Assembly (NCBI GenBank): GCA_003661385.1
Contig: QMWA01000031.1
Location: 1-12,337 of the forward strand
Length of the DNA stretch: 12,337 bases
Reading direction: 5' to 3'
Source: Thermoproteota archaeon
GTDB lineage: Archaea > Korarchaeota > Korarchaeia > B14-G2
Below the pieces are notes generated by a model, which had not been told where the DNA came from, did no database searches, and saw only the letters and a program-made list of their open reading frames with translations. A program made the position numbers and the translations under genes. Each line of letters starts with the position of its first letter. The first letter of the stretch is position 1. Shown here in pieces: positions 4,444-12,337 of the stretch.

Positions 4444-5165
4444 CTCCCACCACCTAGCTGCATGAATACGTCTTCAAGCCTCTTCTCCCCCCTCTTCTCA
4501 AGGACCTCCCTCATCTCACCTACCTCAACTATCCTGCCCTTATGGATCAAGGCTAGCTCCCTGCACAGCTCCTCTGCCTCATACATGTTGTGGGTTGACA
4601 GGATCACAGTCTTCCCGCGAGCAGCCTTCTCCCTGATGAGCTCCCTCACCTCCCTAGCGCTCACCACATCAAGGCCTGTGGTAGGCTCGTCCATGATCAG
4701 GACAGGAGGGTCGAATAGGAGAGCTCTTATTATAGCGAGCTTCCTCCTCATCCCCTTCGAGAGCTTGTCAGCTATCACATCCCTCTTGTCAACCAGGTTG
4801 AACATGTCGAGGTAGTGGTCTATCCTCTCGACAGCGTCTTCGTAGCTCATCCCATAGAGCCTAGCATAGTACAGGAGGAACTCGACTGGGGTCATCCTGG
4901 GGTATATGCCTGTGTCCTCTGGCAAGTAGCCTATCCTCCTCCTGACCTCCATAGGCTGCTTCAGGATGTCGTAGCCTGCTACCCTAGCTGTCCCAGCTGA
5001 GGGCTTCAGCAGCGTAGTCAGTATCCTCAGGAGAGTGGTCTTCCCAGCTCCATTTGGGCCTAGAAGCCCGAAGACAACCCCCTCCCTCACCTTGAACGAC
5101 ACCTCATCGAGCGCCTTAAGCTCCCCATAGTACTTGGTGATACCCATGACCTCAATAGCATACAT
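4440..5165 (-). CDS. ABC transporter ATP-binding protein (NatA/CcmA-like)
   Basis: A 241-residue ATPase subunit of an ABC-2 exporter. The order of motifs is Walker A GPNGAGKTT at 36-44, the Q-loop region YLPEDTGIYPRMT near 80-92, the signature LSKGMRRKLAI near 132-142 (the KGM variant usual in NatA-type ATPases), Walker B VLIMDEPTTGLD and an H-loop with the expected histidine in STHNM. The C-terminus ends with the LEDVFMQL motif seen in this subgroup. All ATP-hydrolysis residues are present. It pairs with the downstream permease through an ATGA overlap. The ATG at 5165 is preceded by a TATA-like box at 25 bases and no Shine-Dalgarno site, so it should be the leaderless first gene of a two-gene operon. 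No neighbouring gene hints at the exported substrate. Confidence 0.95.
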   Translation of the reverse strand: MYAIEVMGITKYYGELKALDEVSFKVREGVVFGLLGPNGAGKTTLLRILTTLLKPSAGTARVAGYDILKQPMEVRRRIGYLPEDTGIYPRMTPVEFLLYYARLYGMSYEDAVERIDHYLDMFNLVDKRDVIADKLSKGMRRKLAIIRALLFDPPVLIMDEPTTGLDVVSAREVRELIREKAARGKTVILSTHNMYEAEELCRELALIHKGRIVEVGEMREVLEKRGEKRLEDVFMQLGGGR

Positions 5166-5186
5166 AGGCCACCATCATCAAGCCGG

Positions 5187-5194
5187 CTTTTAAG
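5187..5194 (-). promoter_or_regulatory. TATA-like box of the ABC exporter operon
   Basis: The minus strand reads CTTAAAAG about 25 bases upstream of the ATPase ATG at 5165. The spacing matches the other leaderless promoters in this window. The remaining gap from 5195 to 5370 shows no convincing gene, tRNA or conserved motif. Confidence 0.55.
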
Positions 5195-5372
5195 TATAAC
5201 GATAGACGAACAGCCACCAGCCAGCGGACGCTATAGACCGGGCATACAGCTGACAGCAGCTGCACTTAGGCATCTAGTGTAGCCAGCTCGGCTATATGCT
5301 CACCATGTACTGGGGCAGCTGGCACCTTAGGCCTTCAAAGCCCTGATGCAGTTCGACCATCAACTAACTTAG

Positions 5373-5379
5373 AGATAAA
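5373..5379 (+). promoter_or_regulatory. TATA-like box of the enoyl-CoA hydratase gene
   Basis: AGATAAA, in an AT-rich island (CTTAGAGATAAAG), is centred 27 bases before the ATG at 5403. No Shine-Dalgarno site is present, fitting leaderless transcription. The box is less canonical than the others in the window. Confidence 0.4.
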
Positions 5380-5402
5380 GGCCAGGGTGGCAGAGGGCCT
5401 CT

Positions 5403-6149
5403 ATGGGGGTAGTTGAACGCAAGCTTGATGGAGAAGTCTTCTGGGTTGTGCTTAACAGGCCTGAAAAGCTCAACGCCCTGAACCTGGAGGGGTGGCGTGG
5501 GCTAAAGGCTGCCATGGAGGAGGCATGGTCCAGCAGAGCTAAAGCTGTTGTCGTGACGGGGTCTGGCAGAGCTTTCTCAGCTGGAGACGACATCTACATG
5601 ATGGCTGAAGCAGAGAGCATAGAGGAGAACATCACAATATTCAGGGAGGTCAAGAGCGTCATAGAGAGGTTCTTAACGCTGGACAAGCCCATCATAGCTG
5701 CCGTAAACGGCTTAGCCTACGGAGGGGGGTTCGAGCTCGTGCTCCTCTGCGACCTAGCTGTAGCAAGCAAGGACGCCAAGTTCGCGCTCCCAGAGTGCGG
5801 GATAGGGGCATACCCGCCCGTAGCGTCAGCTCTGCTCCCCATCCTGGTCCCTAGGAAGATAGCAATGGAGCTCATGCTGACCAGGAAGGAGCTCACAGCA
5901 GAGGAAGCCCACAGGCTAGGGCTCGTAAACAGGGTTGTCCCAGGCGAGAGGCTCCTGGAGGAGGCCAGAAGCCTAGCCATGGAGGTGGCTTCAGTCCCCG
6001 CAGCAAGCCTGAGGGCAGTAAAGAAGATGGCAGCAGCCCTCCTATGGCAGCTGAACCTCCCAAGCACCATAGACGAGCTCATAGCCCTCTCTCAGACAAG
6101 GGAGTACAGGACAGCAGTCAAAGCATTCACGGAGAGGAGGCGTAAGTGA
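5403..6149 (+). CDS. Enoyl-CoA hydratase/isomerase (crotonase) family protein
   Basis: A 248-residue crotonase-fold enzyme, close to the usual 255-260. It probably adds water to, or isomerises, enoyl-CoA thioesters. Marks are LNRPEKLNALN at 17-27, the first oxyanion-hole segment GRAFSAGDDI at 55-64, KPIIAAVNGLAYGGGFEL at 95-112 and AKFALPECGIGAYPP at 125-139. E111 and E131 occupy the positions of the two catalytic glutamates of rat mitochondrial enoyl-CoA hydratase, so dehydratase/hydratase activity is likely. The exact CoA substrate is open: fatty acid oxidation, crotonyl-CoA metabolism or amino acid breakdown are all possible. The ATG at 5403 is favoured because an in-frame stop lies at 5370-5372. 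It has no operon partner and its own likely promoter. A decayed copy of its 3' end appears to follow the stop codon. Confidence 0.93.
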   Translation: MGVVERKLDGEVFWVVLNRPEKLNALNLEGWRGLKAAMEEAWSSRAKAVVVTGSGRAFSAGDDIYMMAEAESIEENITIFREVKSVIERFLTLDKPIIAAVNGLAYGGGFELVLLCDLAVASKDAKFALPECGIGAYPPVASALLPILVPRKIAMELMLTRKELTAEEAHRLGLVNRVVPGERLLEEARSLAMEVASVPAASLRAVKKMAAALLWQLNLPSTIDELIALSQTREYRTAVKAFTERRRK

Positions 6150-6219
6150 CCTAAGCACTGCCAAGGCAGGGAGATAGAGGGCAGCAGTCAAGGCGCACCC
6201 AGAGCGGGGACACAAGTAG
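6100..6219 (+). repeat. Imperfect direct repeat at the end of the crotonase gene
   Basis: The last 50 bases of the gene (6100-6149) resemble 6169-6219 just downstream. Both start GGGAG, share the exact decamer CAGCAGTCAA at the same offset (after a one-base gap), and keep scattered matches (about 25 of 39 in the second part, counted by hand) up to AAGT near the stop codon. This may be a remnant of a small tandem duplication, or chance in a biased sequence. The gap to larB (6150-6346) shows nothing else recognisable. Confidence 0.35.
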
Positions 6220-6346
6220 CTAGCAGCCTTCAGCCTGCTGCGCGCTGTCTCAGCTGCGTCAGGGCTCTAGCTGCCTCTGCTGCAGCGCTTGTGCCAGCTG
6301 GGTTGTGCTGAGGCTTCGCTTGAGGCTGAGGGGAGGAGGCAGCCTG

Positions 6347-7111
6347 CTAGCTTCTGAACTTGGCTGCTCTGTTCGCTATCATCGCTGCTATGACGCCAGC
6401 TGCGACACCTGCATCCACGTTGACTACTGCCACGCCGAGGGAGCAGGACTGGAGCATGGACTTGAGAGCTGCCTCCCCTTTGCCACCTATCCCGTAGCCT
6501 ACTGAGGTGGGTAGGCCTATGACTGGTATGTCGACCATGCTTGCTACCACTGAGGGTAGGGCTCCCTCCATTCCTGCTGCAACCACTATCACGTCTACAT
6601 CGTTCTCCACCATATCCCTTAGGGCCTTGAAGACTCTGTGTACGCCTGCTACGCCTACATCGTATGCTGTGTAGACCTCGCAGCCTAGCTCCCTGGCTAC
6701 GACCTTTGCCTCCTCAGCTACAGGTATGTCAGATGTCCCAGCTGTTATCACACCTACTCTGCCACCTGTCTTCTCTATGGGCGTCCTCCTGGCAACCAGG
6801 ATCCTAGCTGCCTCATGCACCTCCACCTCAGCATCCCCTAGGGCCTCTTTGACCGACTCCATGTGCTCTCTGCTTGCCCTGCTGACTATAACCCTGCCAC
6901 ACCTGTCTAGTATGGCTTTTGCTATCCTAGCTGTGGCTTCAGGAGGCTTCCCCTCTGCTAGGACTATCTCAGGAACCCCCCTCCTGACCTCTCTGCCGAG
7001 GTCGAGTAGAGCTAGGCTGCTGACCTCCTCTAGCAGCAGGGCCTTGATCATCCTCTCTGCCTCATCCACTGAGAGCTCTCCTCTAGCCAGCTTCTCGAGT
7101 ACACGCCTCAT
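6347..7111 (-). CDS. larB: Nickel pincer cofactor biosynthesis protein LarB
   Basis: A 254-residue LarB, the usual length. LarB carboxylates the pyridinium ring of nicotinic acid adenine dinucleotide and splits off AMP to give pyridinium-3,5-biscarboxylic acid mononucleotide, the first step of NPN cofactor synthesis. The N-terminal helical part includes GREVRRGVPEIV at 39-50. The C-terminal half is the PurE-like (AIR carboxylase) domain: ITAGTSDIPVAEEA at 122-135, YDVGVAGVHR at 150-159, AGMEGALPSVVAS at 179-191, LPTSVGYG at 200-207 and SCSLGVAVVNVDAG at 222-235. C223 lies in the SC..GV.VVN motif where the Lactobacillus enzyme has the cysteine that attacks the nicotinic ring. The ATG at 7111 has no Shine-Dalgarno site but a TATA-like box about 25 bases upstream. 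larC, larE and a nickel transporter lie nearby, which confirms the assignment; larB stands outside their operon. Confidence 0.96.
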   Translation of the reverse strand: MRRVLEKLARGELSVDEAERMIKALLLEEVSSLALLDLGREVRRGVPEIVLAEGKPPEATARIAKAILDRCGRVIVSRASREHMESVKEALGDAEVEVHEAARILVARRTPIEKTGGRVGVITAGTSDIPVAEEAKVVARELGCEVYTAYDVGVAGVHRVFKALRDMVENDVDVIVVAAGMEGALPSVVASMVDIPVIGLPTSVGYGIGGKGEAALKSMLQSCSLGVAVVNVDAGVAAGVIAAMIANRAAKFRS

Positions 7112-7164: not shown

Positions 7165-7533
7165 GTGGTGGAGGTGCCTACACTCAGCACTGGGTACATT
7201 ATAGTCGGCGCGTATGCTGATAAGCTGAGGAAGACCCTGTTCGCTCAGCAGAGCAGCCTCGTGAAGTCCGGTGAGCTAGATAGCAAGGAGCTCGCTAGGG
7301 CAGCAGGAGAGCTCAATAGGGTGCTCTTCGACATACTAGTCAACAAGCTCAACCTAGACAAGGGGGATGTGGTCAGGGTGAGAATAGGGTACGAGGTCGA
7401 AGACAGGACAGTTAAGTGGAAGTACAGCACACTGAGCATAGAGGCCTTCAGAAGAGTGGACCAGGGCTCCATCGACAAGGTGGTCGAGGAGGCCATATCA
7501 GCCGCCTCAGCTGAAGCTGGGGCTAGTGGCTAG
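7165..7533 (+). CDS. Conserved archaeal protein, DUF2258-like
   Basis: A 122-residue small soluble protein without signal peptide or membrane segment. The N-terminal LSTGYIIVGAYADKLRKTLFAQ at 7-28 and the later VVRVRIGYEV and WKYSTLSIEAFRRV segments resemble the archaeal DUF2258 family, which has no known function; the family match is from memory. It seems to be an N-terminal strand and long helix followed by two beta-strand segments and a C-terminal helix rich in alanine. The start is GTG at 7165, with GTG at 7168 and 7174 as alternatives, placed about 28 bases after a TATA-like box. It diverges from larB and its 3' end overlaps that of larE by 11 bases. This insertion between larE and larB may hint at a link to NPN or nickel metabolism, but could be chance. 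Confidence 0.8.
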   Translation: MVEVPTLSTGYIIVGAYADKLRKTLFAQQSSLVKSGELDSKELARAAGELNRVLFDILVNKLNLDKGDVVRVRIGYEVEDRTVKWKYSTLSIEAFRRVDQGSIDKVVEEAISAASAEAGASG

Positions 7534-8308
7534 CCTCTCTGTAGCCTTCTAGGTCTAGTGTTATGTACTTGTAGCCTAGCCTCCTGAGGTCCCCTGCTAT
7601 AGCTGGGAGGAGCTCTGCTGCCTTGAGCAGGTGGCTTCTAGCCACCTCTATCCTAGCTATCTCACCGTGGTCTCTCACTCTGATGAGCACTTCCCCCAGA
7701 GCTCTCCTTACAGCCTGCTCTGCTGCCCTCACCTTGAAGACCCTCTCTAAGGTTATCTCCTCTCCAGCTGGGATCCTCGTTGCCAGGCAGCTCTCCTGAG
7801 GCTTCCCCGCGGTGGGGAGCTTAAGGCTCCTAGCTGCCTCCCTGACCTCCTGCTTCGTCAAGCCTGCCTCAGCTAGGGGGGCTCTGACCCCCAGCTCCCT
7901 CATAGCCTTCAAGCCAGGCCTCCTAGCAGTTAGGTCTGATGCGGTGGTTCCGTCCAGGAGGGCTGCTAGCCCCATCCTAGATGCTAGCCTTGTGAGGAGG
8001 CTGTACCTGGCCTTCTTGCAGAGGTAGCATCTCTCCTGGGTGTTCTTGGTGAAGCCTGCTATGTTAAGCTCGTTGAAGTCTACTATGACGTGCTTCACTC
8101 CAGTGTGCTCAGCTACAGCCCTAGCGTAGTCTAGCTCCCATGGAGGGAGCAGAGGGGAGTTGACTGTGAAGGCGACCACATCAGGTAGGGCTTCAGCTGC
8201 TAGCGCTGTGAGCAGGGAGCTGTCTACTCCCCCTGAAAGCGCCACAGCTGCGCTCCCCAGAGATGAAATCAGCTCTTTGGCCCTCCTGAGCTTACTGCTC
8301 AAGCTCAC
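7523..8308 (-). CDS. larE: Pyridinium-3,5-biscarboxylate mononucleotide sulfurtransferase LarE
   Basis: A 261-residue LarE, near the usual 270. It activates the LarB product with ATP and adds sulfur at the two carboxylates, giving the dithiocarboxylic acid nucleotide that LarC loads with nickel. The PP-loop motif ALSGGVDSS is at 23-31, followed by LDGTTASDL at 118-126 and SCLATRIP at 173-180. C174 corresponds to the cysteine that the Lactobacillus enzyme sacrifices as sulfur donor. Two further cysteines in RCYLCKK (C94 and C97) create the three-cysteine set linked in other LarE proteins, such as the Thermotoga one, with a [4Fe-4S] cluster and catalytic sulfur transfer. The GTG start at 8308 overlaps the end of larC by 17 bases, so it is read from the same operon. 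It is the last gene of that operon. Confidence 0.96.
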   Translation of the reverse strand: MSLSSKLRRAKELISSLGSAAVALSGGVDSSLLTALAAEALPDVVAFTVNSPLLPPWELDYARAVAEHTGVKHVIVDFNELNIAGFTKNTQERCYLCKKARYSLLTRLASRMGLAALLDGTTASDLTARRPGLKAMRELGVRAPLAEAGLTKQEVREAARSLKLPTAGKPQESCLATRIPAGEEITLERVFKVRAAEQAVRRALGEVLIRVRDHGEIARIEVARSHLLKAAELLPAIAGDLRRLGYKYITLDLEGYREASH

Positions 8309-9497
8309 CAGCCTTCGCCATAGCCTTCTTCATCACAACCCTCAGGGGCTTGCCAGCTGACCTGGACACCCTCTTCAGGTCATCGAACTCAGGCTTAGCC
8401 CTCAGAACCCTGCCAGATAGGTCTCTGGCAACCTTCACCCTTATCCTCTCACCCTCCACCTCTGCCTCCACGAGCTCCCTCTGCAGCACCCTCCTAGAGG
8501 ACGTGTACACCCTCACCCCCAGGGTTCCTGTCTCCTCTATGACAGCCATGGCTATACGCTCTGCGTCCTCTGGGGCAGCTAAGGCCTTCAGGAGCATGGC
8601 AGGCCTCCCCTTCTTGCCGCAGCCATAGAGGGCTATGACATCCTTTGCTCCAAGCTCCATTATCCTCTCTATCGCATGGGACATGAGCTCGCCTGTCACG
8701 TCATCTAGGTTAGCTTCTATGACAGCAACCTGGTCTCTCACGAGCATTGGCGTCAGCTCTCCGACTACAACCCTGAGGACGTTAGCCACCTCAGGGTGGT
8801 CTCTTGCTCCAGCCCCGTAGCCTACTGCCTCAACCCTCATCTCAGGCTGGAAGCTAGCTGGCTCAGGCCTGAGAGCTGCCAGGAGGGCTGCTCCAGTCGG
8901 TGTTGTGAGCTCACCGCCAGCTGGGCCTCCAGCTGATGGGAGACCTGCTCTCCTGAGGATCTCTAGGGTAGCTGGAGCTGGAGCCGAGAACGTCCCGTGG
9001 GAGAAGGTGAAGAGCCCCCCTCCTAGGGCTATTGGGCTGCAGTAGACTCTGGAGGAGAAGGCTTTGAGGCTGTCTAGGGCTGCAGCTACCCCAGCTAAGT
9101 CCACCACGGTGTCAGGGGAGGCAGCCTCATGCAGGTGCACCTCGCTGGGGTCTACTCCATGCACCTCCGCCTCAGCCTCCACTAGGATTGACAGAGCCTC
9201 CATGGCGTACTCGATGGCCCTGCCTGAGCACCCTGCCTTGTTCAAGCCGCGTTCAACCGCCCTCTTGATCTCCTCTACACTGAGCCTCCTGTCCTCTGCC
9301 TCAACCAGCAGCCTGCTCGCCCTCACCCCCCTCCTCCTCACTTCAGTGAGCTTAACTGAGGCCTTGACCCCAGCTGAGCTGCATGCCAGCTTAGCTGCCC
9401 TCAGAGGCTCTTCTCCAAGCCCTGTGTCAGCTAAGGCTGCTAGAAGCATGTCACCTGATACCCCAGCTAGCCTGCAGTCCACGTATATGCCTCTCAT
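8292..9497 (-). CDS. larC: Nickel pincer cofactor nickel insertase LarC
   Basis: A 401-residue LarC, the CTP-dependent cyclometallase that inserts nickel into the sulfur-bearing nucleotide to finish the NPN cofactor. The N-terminal half (LarC1) shows DCRLAGVSGDMLLAALAD at 7-24, EVHLHEAASPDTVVDLAG at 119-136, SHGTFSAPAPATLEIL at 166-181 and GELTTPTGAALLAAL at 195-209. The C-terminal half (LarC2) shows ANLDDVTGE at 262-270, CGKKGRPAMLLKAL at 293-306, EETGTLGVR at 321-329 and KPEFDD at 368-373. Both halves lie in one frame, unlike the Lactobacillus gene, which needs a ribosomal frameshift. The histidine-rich stretch found in many LarC proteins is absent. The ATG at 9497 follows the pstS-like gene by 13 bases, and the 3' end overlaps larE. 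Confidence 0.96.
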   Translation of the reverse strand: MRGIYVDCRLAGVSGDMLLAALADTGLGEEPLRAAKLACSSAGVKASVKLTEVRRRGVRASRLLVEAEDRRLSVEEIKRAVERGLNKAGCSGRAIEYAMEALSILVEAEAEVHGVDPSEVHLHEAASPDTVVDLAGVAAALDSLKAFSSRVYCSPIALGGGLFTFSHGTFSAPAPATLEILRRAGLPSAGGPAGGELTTPTGAALLAALRPEPASFQPEMRVEAVGYGAGARDHPEVANVLRVVVGELTPMLVRDQVAVIEANLDDVTGELMSHAIERIMELGAKDVIALYGCGKKGRPAMLLKALAAPEDAERIAMAVIEETGTLGVRVYTSSRRVLQRELVEAEVEGERIRVKVARDLSGRVLRAKPEFDDLKRVSRSAGKPLRVVMKKAMAKAGELEQ

Positions 9498-9510
9498 GCT
9501 GACCTGCTAG

Positions 9511-10614
9511 CTAGTGGCGGGTGTAGCTTAAGAGGTTGCACCTAAGCTGCTGCCTGCCTCCACTGCCCTCTGATGTTATCATAGCTATGGTCTGGAGGTT
9601 CAGCTCCACAACCTCCCTTGGCAGCGGTGGGTAGTGGAGCTGTGGAGCATACCTCTGGCCTTCTGTCACAACCCATGTGAGGAACTCTGCTAGCGCCCTG
9701 GCTTTCTCAGGGCTCTCCTGGACTCTGCACACTATCACATAGGAGAAGCTTGAGATGGGGTAGGATAGCCTCCCTGGGGCATTGACTATCGAGACGTGCT
9801 CCCAGCTTTCATCTCCCCTGGGCAGGAGGCCTGCTGCTCCAGCTGCAGCTGCTGATATCGTGGTGAGGTTGGGCTCAACGAAGAAGCCATCCCTGTTCCT
9901 TATGAGGGCGGTCTGCAAGCTGCTCTGGATGGCATATGCCAGCTCAACGTAGCCTATGGAGCACTTGCTCTGCCTGACTACAGCTGCAACACCCTCATTT
10001 CCCTTCGCAGCTATCCCACGCGCCCCGACCTCTGGGGGGAACGAGAAGGTCTTGCCCCTCCCCACCCTCAGCCTCCACTCCTCTGACACCTCAGATAGGT
10101 AGTCTGTGAGTATGTAGGTTGTCCCGCTTCCATCTGCCCTCTTCACTACCACTATCTCCTCATCTGGCAGGTTCAGCCCTGGGTTCACAGCCCTTATCTC
10201 TGGGCTGCTCCACTTCCTGACCTTCCCCAGGTATATTGCAGCCAGAAGCTCTCCTGTGAGCTTCAGCCTCCCACCTAGCTCAGGTAGGTTGTAGACAACT
10301 GCCACACCACCCAGGGTTACTGGGATGTGAAGGACATCTGGGGCCTTAGCCCTCTCCTCTCTGCTCATTGGGACATCACTTGACCCCCAGTCGACGCTTC
10401 CAGCTGTCAGGAGCCTTATCCCAGCTCCGCTCCCCACGCTCTGGTAGCTCACTGAGACCTTGGGGTTGACCTTCCTGTACTCGCTTATCCACCTAGACAT
10501 CAGCGGGTACTGGAATGAGGAGCCTGCCCCCAGCAGGGAGATCTCTCCCCCGACTCTGAACGTGTAGGCCAGGTAAGCTAGAGCCAGCAGAGCCAGCGCT
10601 AGCGCCCTCTTCAA
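9511..10614 (-). CDS. pstS: PstS-like phosphate-type substrate-binding protein
   Basis: A 367-residue periplasmic-type binding protein. A short hydrophobic N-terminus (about 3-18, after MKR) is a signal peptide or membrane anchor. The PstS family marks follow: LLGAGSSFQYPL at 27-38, VSYQSVGSGAGI at 55-66, VDWGSSDVPMS at 74-84, and KRADGSGTTYILTDYL at 158-173, which contains the residues that grip phosphate in characterised PstS proteins; later come GNEGVAAVV and YPISSFSYVIV. It should bind phosphate or a similar oxyanion outside the cell membrane. The start is TTG at 10614, overlapping the stop of the ATPase gene (TTGA), with GAGGTGA six bases before. Unusually, no pstC, pstA or pstB is next to it; it lies between a nickel-type ECF ATPase gene and larC. 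The ligand and partner are unproven. Confidence 0.92.
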   Translation of the reverse strand: MKRALALALLALAYLAYTFRVGGEISLLGAGSSFQYPLMSRWISEYRKVNPKVSVSYQSVGSGAGIRLLTAGSVDWGSSDVPMSREERAKAPDVLHIPVTLGGVAVVYNLPELGGRLKLTGELLAAIYLGKVRKWSSPEIRAVNPGLNLPDEEIVVVKRADGSGTTYILTDYLSEVSEEWRLRVGRGKTFSFPPEVGARGIAAKGNEGVAAVVRQSKCSIGYVELAYAIQSSLQTALIRNRDGFFVEPNLTTISAAAAGAAGLLPRGDESWEHVSIVNAPGRLSYPISSFSYVIVCRVQESPEKARALAEFLTWVVTEGQRYAPQLHYPPLPREVVELNLQTIAMITSEGSGGRQQLRCNLLSYTRH

Positions 10615-11423
10615 CCCAGGTCACCTCTCAGCTCCCTTATCTTCTCAGCTAGCTCGCCTGGAGTCAAGGGAGGTGAGCCATCTAAGCCAGCCTGCCTGTA
10701 TGCTAAGGCTGGTGAAGGAGGCTTCACACCAGCTTCAGCTAGCAGGTCCAGGTCAGAGAGAACCTCCCTAGCTGGCCCATAGGCGTGCACGAGACCGCTC
10801 CTCAGGAGGAGGACCCTGTCAGCTAGCTCAGCTGCGAGCTCAGAGTCCTGTGTAGTGAACACCACAATGCACCCCCTACTCCTATAGGCTCTTATCAAGC
10901 TCTTAACAAGCTCCACACCACCCAAGTCTAGGCCTGAGGCAGGCTCATCTAGCAGCAGCACCTTGGGGCTAGCTGCCAGGACCCCAGCTAAGGCAACCCT
11001 CTTCTTCTCACCTTGGCTGAGCCTCATGGTCCTCCTGTCTAGGAGGTGGTCTGCTCCAGCCTGCATAGCAGCCTCCCTGACAGCCTTCTCCACCTCCTCT
11101 CTGCTGAAGCTGAGCTGCAAGGGGCCTATCGCTATGTCCTCCCGCACTGTCGGGGCTATCAGCTGGTCTTCTGGGCTCTGGAAGAGCACCCCACAGACCC
11201 TCCTGTACCTCAAGCCGAGCTCCCTGACATCGACGCCGTTGTAGCACACGCAGCCTGAGCTCGGGTCCAGTAGGCCAGCTAGCAGCAGTATAAGCGTCGT
11301 TTTGCCTGAGCCGTTTGCGCCCAGGACTGCTAGAGCCTCCCCTCCCCTGACCTCGAGGCTAACCCCCCTGATAGCCCAGCCTCCACCAGGGTACCTGTAG
11401 CCTAGCTCCCTGCATGACAGCAA
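10611..11423 (-). CDS. cbiO: ECF-type nickel/cobalt transporter ATPase (CbiO/LarO-like)
   Basis: A 270-residue ATPase of an energy-coupling factor transporter. Walker A is GANGSGKTT at 35-43; the Q-loop FQSPEDQLIAPTVREDIAIGP at 81-101 is typical of CbiO/EcfA proteins; the signature is LSQGE at 135-139; Walker B is VLLLDE at 155-160 with SGLD after it. The position of the H-loop histidine is Q192 (FTTQDSELA), an unusual change; the codon is CAG. The start is TTG at 11423, the only start after an in-frame stop. With the T-component and CbiM-type genes upstream it would power uptake of nickel (or cobalt); nickel is favoured because larC and larE follow in the same operon, as in the Lactobacillus lar operon, where the matching gene is larO. 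Confidence 0.93.
   Translation of the reverse strand: MLSCRELGYRYPGGGWAIRGVSLEVRGGEALAVLGANGSGKTTLILLLAGLLDPSSGCVCYNGVDVRELGLRYRRVCGVLFQSPEDQLIAPTVREDIAIGPLQLSFSREEVEKAVREAAMQAGADHLLDRRTMRLSQGEKKRVALAGVLAASPKVLLLDEPASGLDLGGVELVKSLIRAYRSRGCIVVFTTQDSELAAELADRVLLLRSGLVHAYGPAREVLSDLDLLAEAGVKPPSPALAYRQAGLDGSPPLTPGELAEKIRELRGDLG
10621..10627 (-). promoter_or_regulatory. Shine-Dalgarno site of the pstS-like gene
   Basis: GAGGTGA on the minus strand lies six bases before the TTG at 10614, inside the end of the ATPase gene. It supports the TTG as the start and coupled translation of the two genes. Confidence 0.6.
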
Positions 11424-11433
11424 CGTGGAGCCC

Positions 11434-12219
11434 CTATAGGGTTAGTGAAGCTGCTATTAAAGCTAAGGCCGGGGCTATAGCAGCAAGCGTCGCACCTGGG
11501 CTCCCGCTGCAGCAGGCTTCAGGCAGGGGGGCACGCGCCTCCAAGGCGAGCTTCCTGGAGTGAGCCCTGTCAAAGCTCTTGAGCAGGAGAGCTGAGACAG
11601 CTGTCGAAGCCCACCTCCAGCTGGCGAGCAGGCCTGTGTCAGCTAGCACCCTAGCCTCTCTTGCCTGAAGGAGCTTGGCCATGTCCCTGATCTGGAGGGG
11701 GGCTAGCCTAAACAGCCCCCAGAGGGCCTCCACCATGTGCTTCGGAGCACCTAGAGCTGCTATGCCAGCTATGAACCTGTAGGCTCCAGCGCCCACCACC
11801 ATAGCTAGCAGCATGGACACTGAGCCAAAGACCCTGGCTACGAGGTGAACAGCCTTGAGCACACCCTCCCTGGTGGCTGTAGCCCTCAAGCCTAAGAGGC
11901 TCAAGCTGGCTACAGGCTCTCCAGGCACCATGAAAATGAGGGGGAGGGCTACGGCAGCCATGAACAGAGCCCATGCAGCAGACACCTTGAGGGCCCTCCA
12001 GCGCCCCCCGCCTGCGGCGACGAAGGCTATGGCAGCTGCTAGAGCTGGTGCAGCCAGGCTTCTGCTCGCCAGCGAGACTGCTGAGACCGAGGCTGCAGCT
12101 GAGAGCACAACAGCTCTGGCGTCAGCCTCAGCCAGCAGGCTCCTCCCAGGGGCCTCTACAGCCTGCATCCACTCTGACAGAGCCTCCAGCACCCTCTGAG
12201 CTTCCTTGGAGAGCCTCAC
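11434..12219 (-). CDS. cbiQ: ECF transporter T-component (CbiQ/LarQ-like)
   Basis: A 261-residue, alanine-rich membrane protein with predicted membrane segments at about 37-54, 56-71, 80-98, 125-145 and 242-260. Between them, on the cytoplasmic side, are the two Ala-Arg motifs typical of T-components, within LQAREARVLADTG at 184-196 and LALEARAPLP at 224-233; these coupling helices contact the ATPase. It would link the ATPase to the CbiM-type nickel-binding subunit. Sequence identity to named CbiQ proteins is low by eye, so the call rests on these motifs plus its place between cbiM-like and cbiO-like genes. The GTG start at 12219 overlaps the stop of the upstream gene (GTGA) and follows a strong Shine-Dalgarno site. 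Ten bases separate it from the ATPase gene. Confidence 0.85.
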   Translation of the reverse strand: MRLSKEAQRVLEALSEWMQAVEAPGRSLLAEADARAVVLSAAASVSAVSLASRSLAAPALAAAIAFVAAGGGRWRALKVSAAWALFMAAVALPLIFMVPGEPVASLSLLGLRATATREGVLKAVHLVARVFGSVSMLLAMVVGAGAYRFIAGIAALGAPKHMVEALWGLFRLAPLQIRDMAKLLQAREARVLADTGLLASWRWASTAVSALLLKSFDRAHSRKLALEARAPLPEACCSGSPGATLAAIAPALALIAASLTL

Positions 12220-12337
12220 TTCCTCCTCCTCACCATGGCGTATGGGATGAGGAGTATCGCCACGCCAACCAGCCCTGAGATGATGTAGCCTACCACGTCG
12301 TTGAGCCCTGGGACAGTGTAGTCTGGTAGCAGCCCGC
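12216..12337 (-). CDS. Nickel/cobalt ECF permease C-terminus (CbiM/LarMN PDGLE-type), partial
   Basis: The last 39 residues of a gene whose start lies beyond the right edge of the window. They read LLPDYTVPGLND, then a membrane segment (VVGYIISGLVGVAILLIPYA) and the positive tail MVRRRK. The LPDY.VPG pattern, one membrane helix and an arginine-lysine end match the PDGLE domain that closes NikMN/LarMN or CbiM-type nickel and cobalt permeases, or the separate CbiN/NikN subunit. Whether it is fused to a CbiM part cannot be seen. Its stop codon overlaps the T-component start, which places it as an upstream gene of the nickel and NPN operon. Confidence 0.75.
   Translation of the reverse strand, partial: GLLPDYTVPGLNDVVGYIISGLVGVAILLIPYAMVRRRK
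12221..12230 (-). promoter_or_regulatory. Shine-Dalgarno site of the T-component gene
   Basis: AGGAGGAGGA on the minus strand ends just before the GTG at 12219 and also encodes the arginine-rich end of the upstream permease. It supports the GTG start. Confidence 0.55.

Follow-up and report, generated by a model that had tools for sequence, protein, structure and literature searches.

A pstS gene located within a nickel ECF/lar gene cluster of an archaeal genome, apart from pstCAB-phoU

The locus studied here raises the question of why a gene resembling pstS stands among genes for metal uptake and NPN synthesis, and which ligand and partners its product would have there. The window, meaning the whole stretch of DNA that was analysed (12,337 nucleotides), is the entire contig C31 of an archaeal MAG of 1.74 Mb, which comprises 206 contigs and is 91% complete.

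The pstS gene and its neighbours

The gene at positions 9511-10614 of the minus strand, which has a TTG start and encodes 367 amino acids, is a genuine pstS, as the first-pass annotation had proposed in calling its product PstS-like. The protein reaches 350.6 bits with TIGR00975, the PstS equivalog model, whose curated cut-off is 205, and the alignment is full length, with residues 28-346 of the 367 matching profile positions 2-314 of 315. It is also matched by Pfam PF12849 (1.8e-43) and by solved PstS structures in the PDB, with E-values down to 2.4e-73, while no Pfam or NCBIfam match to an ECF S, T, A or N component was found in it. Its N-terminus, MKRALALALLALAYLAYTF, is hydrophobic, has no lipobox cysteine and, by inspection, resembles a signal or an anchor; PstS would be exported and held on the outer side of the membrane. 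The structure predicted from a three-sequence alignment has a mean pLDDT of 39.9, and no conclusion is drawn from it.

The sequence confirms the close packing that had been described for this gene. The ECF ATPase gene and pstS share four bases (TTGA, 10611-10614, minus strand) that hold the stop of the former and the start of the latter, with a strong Shine-Dalgarno match, GAGGTGA, located six bases 5' of the TTG, and the pstS stop is separated from the larC start at 9497 by 13 bases (9498-9510). No Pst permease or ATPase gene occurs anywhere in the window, in line with the earlier statement that none is next to pstS.

All of the following neighbours are encoded on the minus strand. The ECF transporter ATPase gene (10611-11423, NikO/CbiO-like) matches PF00005, with the cbiO subfamily and ECF_ATPase models remaining below their cut-offs; the CbiQ/NikQ-like ECF-T gene (11434-12219) matches PF02361 with 60.3 bits (cut-off 25) and TIGR02454 with 80.6, which is below cut-off. 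The 3' end of a gene for a PDGLE-domain protein, NikN/CbiN-like, occupies 12216-12337, and its remainder lies on contig C144. C144 begins with the same 123 bases (1-123) with which the window ends (12215-12337), and this exact overlap shows that both contigs are adjacent in the genome. In addition to the rest of the PDGLE gene, C144 contributes cbiM (205.5 bits, cut-off 23.1) on the same strand, and the extended cluster reads cbiM, PDGLE gene, ECF-T, ECF-A, pstS, larC and larE. The ECF transporter thus has its own membrane S component, CbiM, and does not need a separate binding protein for metal uptake.

On the other side of pstS, larC (8292-9497), for nickel pincer cofactor synthesis, encodes LarC1 and LarC2 domains and is matched above cut-off by TIGR00299 (163.5 bits) and NF052512 (125.7 bits). 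It overlaps by 17 bases with larE (7523-8308), a sulfur transferase gene with 264.3 bits in TIGR00268 (cut-off 150); larB follows at 6347-7111 (NF033503, 250.2 bits, cut-off 175), with an opposite-strand gene between larB and larE. From the lar neighbours, the metal transported by the ECF system is presumed to be nickel. LarA (PF09861) was not found in the 91% complete genome, though larB, larC and larE are present, so the NPN-using enzyme is missing, unassembled or from another family. Further along the window, at 1469-2841, overlapping moaC and moaA genes were named by inspection on the minus strand.

Since the MAG is fragmented, it could be asked whether the contig joins DNA from different organisms through an error of assembly or binning. 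The reading frames, however, overlap by four bases at the upstream junction of pstS and are 13 bases apart at the other, and the GC3 of pstS (0.67) is like that of its neighbours (0.64-0.65) and of the pst genes of contig C37, described below (0.65-0.72). By GC3, there is thus no sign of an assembly join or of a recent foreign insert, and such an artefact is extremely unlikely.

Phosphate pocket and Pst transporter

The phosphate site of E. coli PstS is formed by T10, F11, S38, D56, R135, D137, S139, G140 and T141. In the alignment to this protein, the corresponding residues of the window PstS are S33, F34, S62, D80, R159, D161, S163, G164 and T165; all nine positions are kept, the sole change being the conservative replacement of T10 by serine. 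Relatives with pstS inside a pstSCAB cluster show this same change, and the string S F S D R D S G T also occurs in other archaeal PstS encoded within pst operons. Moreover, the pocket agrees with that of Xanthomonas PhoX, which is formed by Ser, Ser, Asp, Arg, Gly and Thr residues plus an Asn (PMC5439949). Phosphate would then be the ligand of the window PstS, judging from the conserved residues. The suggestion that the protein had taken a new ligand finds no support in a pocket where every phosphate-contact position is conserved, and it was rejected on this ground together with the parallel similarity of PstS and PstCAB reported below.

The search for pstCAB elsewhere in the genome, which the first-pass annotation had recommended, identified contiguous pstC-pstA-pstB-phoU genes on C37 (4556-7724), of which pstC-pstA-pstB cover 4556-7045. 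Here, pstC scores 263.9 bits (cut-off 196.45) and pstB 392.8 bits (cut-off 343.2), pstA being assigned by position and homology, so that the PstC, PstA and PstB partners for PstS are present in the same genome. Both flanks of this operon are assembled, with a divergent radical SAM gene 5' of pstC and a small roadblock-like gene, named by inspection, 3' of phoU, and no pstS occurs on C37 on either side of pstCAB-phoU. A PF12849 search of the genome returned no second good PstS, the only other match being a weak one of 28 bits on C60. As PstCAB is present, the idea of an orphan phosphate receptor lacking a transporter is unsupported.

History of PstS and placement of its gene in relatives

PstS and the concatenated PstC-PstA-PstB were compared across relatives through trees and sequence identities, the genome of the window being denoted G000. 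Both trees place the G000 proteins within a clade with G051, G029, G022, G017 and G031, outside the majority korarchaeal clade, the exact sister of G000 being poorly supported (branch support of 0.51 and 0.44 in the two trees). G051 is the nearest relative both for the window PstS (55% identity) and for the PstCAB of C37 (57%). The identities of the G000 PstS and PstCAB to other species are correlated (Pearson 0.93, Spearman 0.74, n=17, the points being non-independent through common ancestry), whereas the LarC identities do not track them (Spearman -0.38, n=9), with the closest LarC matches in G001 and G002. Thus, pstS shares its history with the phosphate transporter and not with the lar genes.

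In G051, G029, G022 and G017, the genes are arranged in the order pstS-pstC-pstA-pstB. In the same clade, a Nitrososphaera MAG encodes a natural PstS-PstC fusion of 734 amino acids (L079, 7902-10106), matched by both models above cut-off; a second PstS gene precedes the fusion gene. When contigs were scanned with the window PstS alone, a Nitrososphaera MAG was the one relative returned.

A second pstS could be missing from the assembly, the genome being 91% complete and divided into 206 contigs, and two relatives, G010 and G013, carry two PstS genes each. The gene in the window might accordingly be a spare paralogue, with the principal pstS in an unassembled part of the genome. This is unlikely, as the assembly includes the sequence on both sides of pstCAB-phoU and no pstS is present there, and the window PstS already shows the relationships expected of the partner of the C37 Pst system.

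Of the possibilities first raised for this protein, service to a distant Pst system is therefore favoured, by the pstCAB-phoU operon lacking pstS elsewhere in the genome and by the closest relatives that PstS and PstCAB have in common. It is very probable that pstS was displaced from the pst operon to its present place in the nickel/lar operon, with PstS still serving PstCAB. The gene would have left the head of pstSCAB-phoU for the nickel ECF/larCE operon, either by moving there or by being copied, the original being lost afterwards. PstS would then capture phosphate and hand it to PstC-PstA-PstB, encoded elsewhere in the genome, and would have no role in nickel uptake, for which the ECF transporter has its own membrane component, or in NPN synthesis.

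Displacement of pstS would also affect its expression. A TATA-like TTATAA is located upstream of pstC on C37 and another upstream of cbiM, and nothing comparable is seen in the 250 bases before pstS. The gene is thus probably read from the nickel/lar promoter instead of with pstCAB, and its co-transcription with the nickel uptake genes is plausible considering the four-base overlap and the missing TATA-like site. If pstS is expressed from a foreign operon, its regulation by phosphate would be odd.

Regarding the conservation of this placement, larC is present in 12 of the 29 genomes examined for the phylum, that of the window included, and pstS adjoins it only in the latter. The linkage is likewise absent from the lar loci of nine further archaea, and no report of pstS inside a lar operon was found in the open-access literature. 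A conserved lar-pstS linkage was rejected, as it was not found in 20 lar loci and 29 phylum genomes, and the insertion is hence not kept in related archaeal lar loci, where the first-pass annotation had advised looking for it. In relatives, pstS is adjacent to pstCAB in some cases and separate in others, but in none is it part of a lar locus, the pattern that the first-pass annotation had named beforehand as counting against its proposal; the linkage is thus confined to this lineage and provides no indication of a conserved functional link. In G002, the larC-larE genes are followed by genes for an NMT1-like binding protein, an ABC permease, an ABC ATPase and a UbiD-family decarboxylase (L083, 5766-11896), and the transporter beside lar is different from that of the window.

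These observations bear on two functional readings of the position. PstS may have been recruited as an accessory receptor for the nickel ECF transporter or for NPN synthesis, with nickel, a metal-phosphate, an oxyanion or a nucleotide as its ligand, as could be supposed from a gene inside the operon with a four-base overlap and a strong ribosome-binding site. However, all phosphate-contact positions are conserved, the ECF module already includes CbiM and the PDGLE protein, PstS similarity follows PstCAB and not LarC, and the arrangement is missing from every other lar locus and from the other phylum genomes examined, which makes recruitment highly improbable. It is also very unlikely that a beneficial co-regulation of phosphate capture and nickel uptake retains pstS in the nickel/lar operon, or that PstS additionally assists the ECF transporter.

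Separation of pstS from pstCAB is, by itself, not restricted to the window. In G002, a complete genome in a single contig, the two are 98 kb apart, and they are also split, away from lar, in G001, G003, G004, G010 and G024. The unlinked korarchaeal PstS form their own clade in the tree, and the separation in the lineage of the window consequently looks like an independent event. In the cases read, the unlinked pstS of this Korarchaeum type adjoins a divergent gene with AbrB/MazE-type and PhoU domains; in G002 (L059, 6858-9131), the divergent gene encodes a protein of 336 amino acids combining an AbrB/MazE-type DNA-binding domain with a PhoU domain, which is a candidate archaeal phosphate regulator.

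Comparison with known systems

The window PstS seems to be an ordinary protein with an unusual gene position and possibly altered regulation, and there is no evidence for a new ligand or for a partnership with the ECF transporter. The interest of the locus is one of annotation and regulation and involves no new mechanism. It is a clear case of an operon neighbourhood that would mislead functional annotation, as the neighbours suggest nickel and the rest of the genome phosphate. Furthermore, more than one korarchaeal lineage has lost the linkage between pstS and pstCAB, a fact of relevance to the regulation of phosphate uptake in these archaea.

As in the PstSCAB importer, whose PstS is described by TIGR00975, the protein gives a full-length match above cut-off, has the pocket residues and is accompanied by pstCAB-phoU in the genome; the difference is the location of its gene in the nickel ECF/larCE operon and not at the head of pstCAB. 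The Korarchaeum-type unlinked pstS of G002 and its relatives shares with the window a PstS encoded far from pstCAB, but it is transcribed divergently from a gene of AbrB-PhoU type, its protein falls in another PstS clade, and lar genes are not close by. Dispersed pstS homologues are also found in marine Synechococcus WH8102, near regulator, stress and chaperone genes, and three of its PstS proteins have been assayed for ligand binding (PMC10846223). While this bacterium has several paralogues, the genome of the window has one PstS found, encoded in an archaeal operon of another function.
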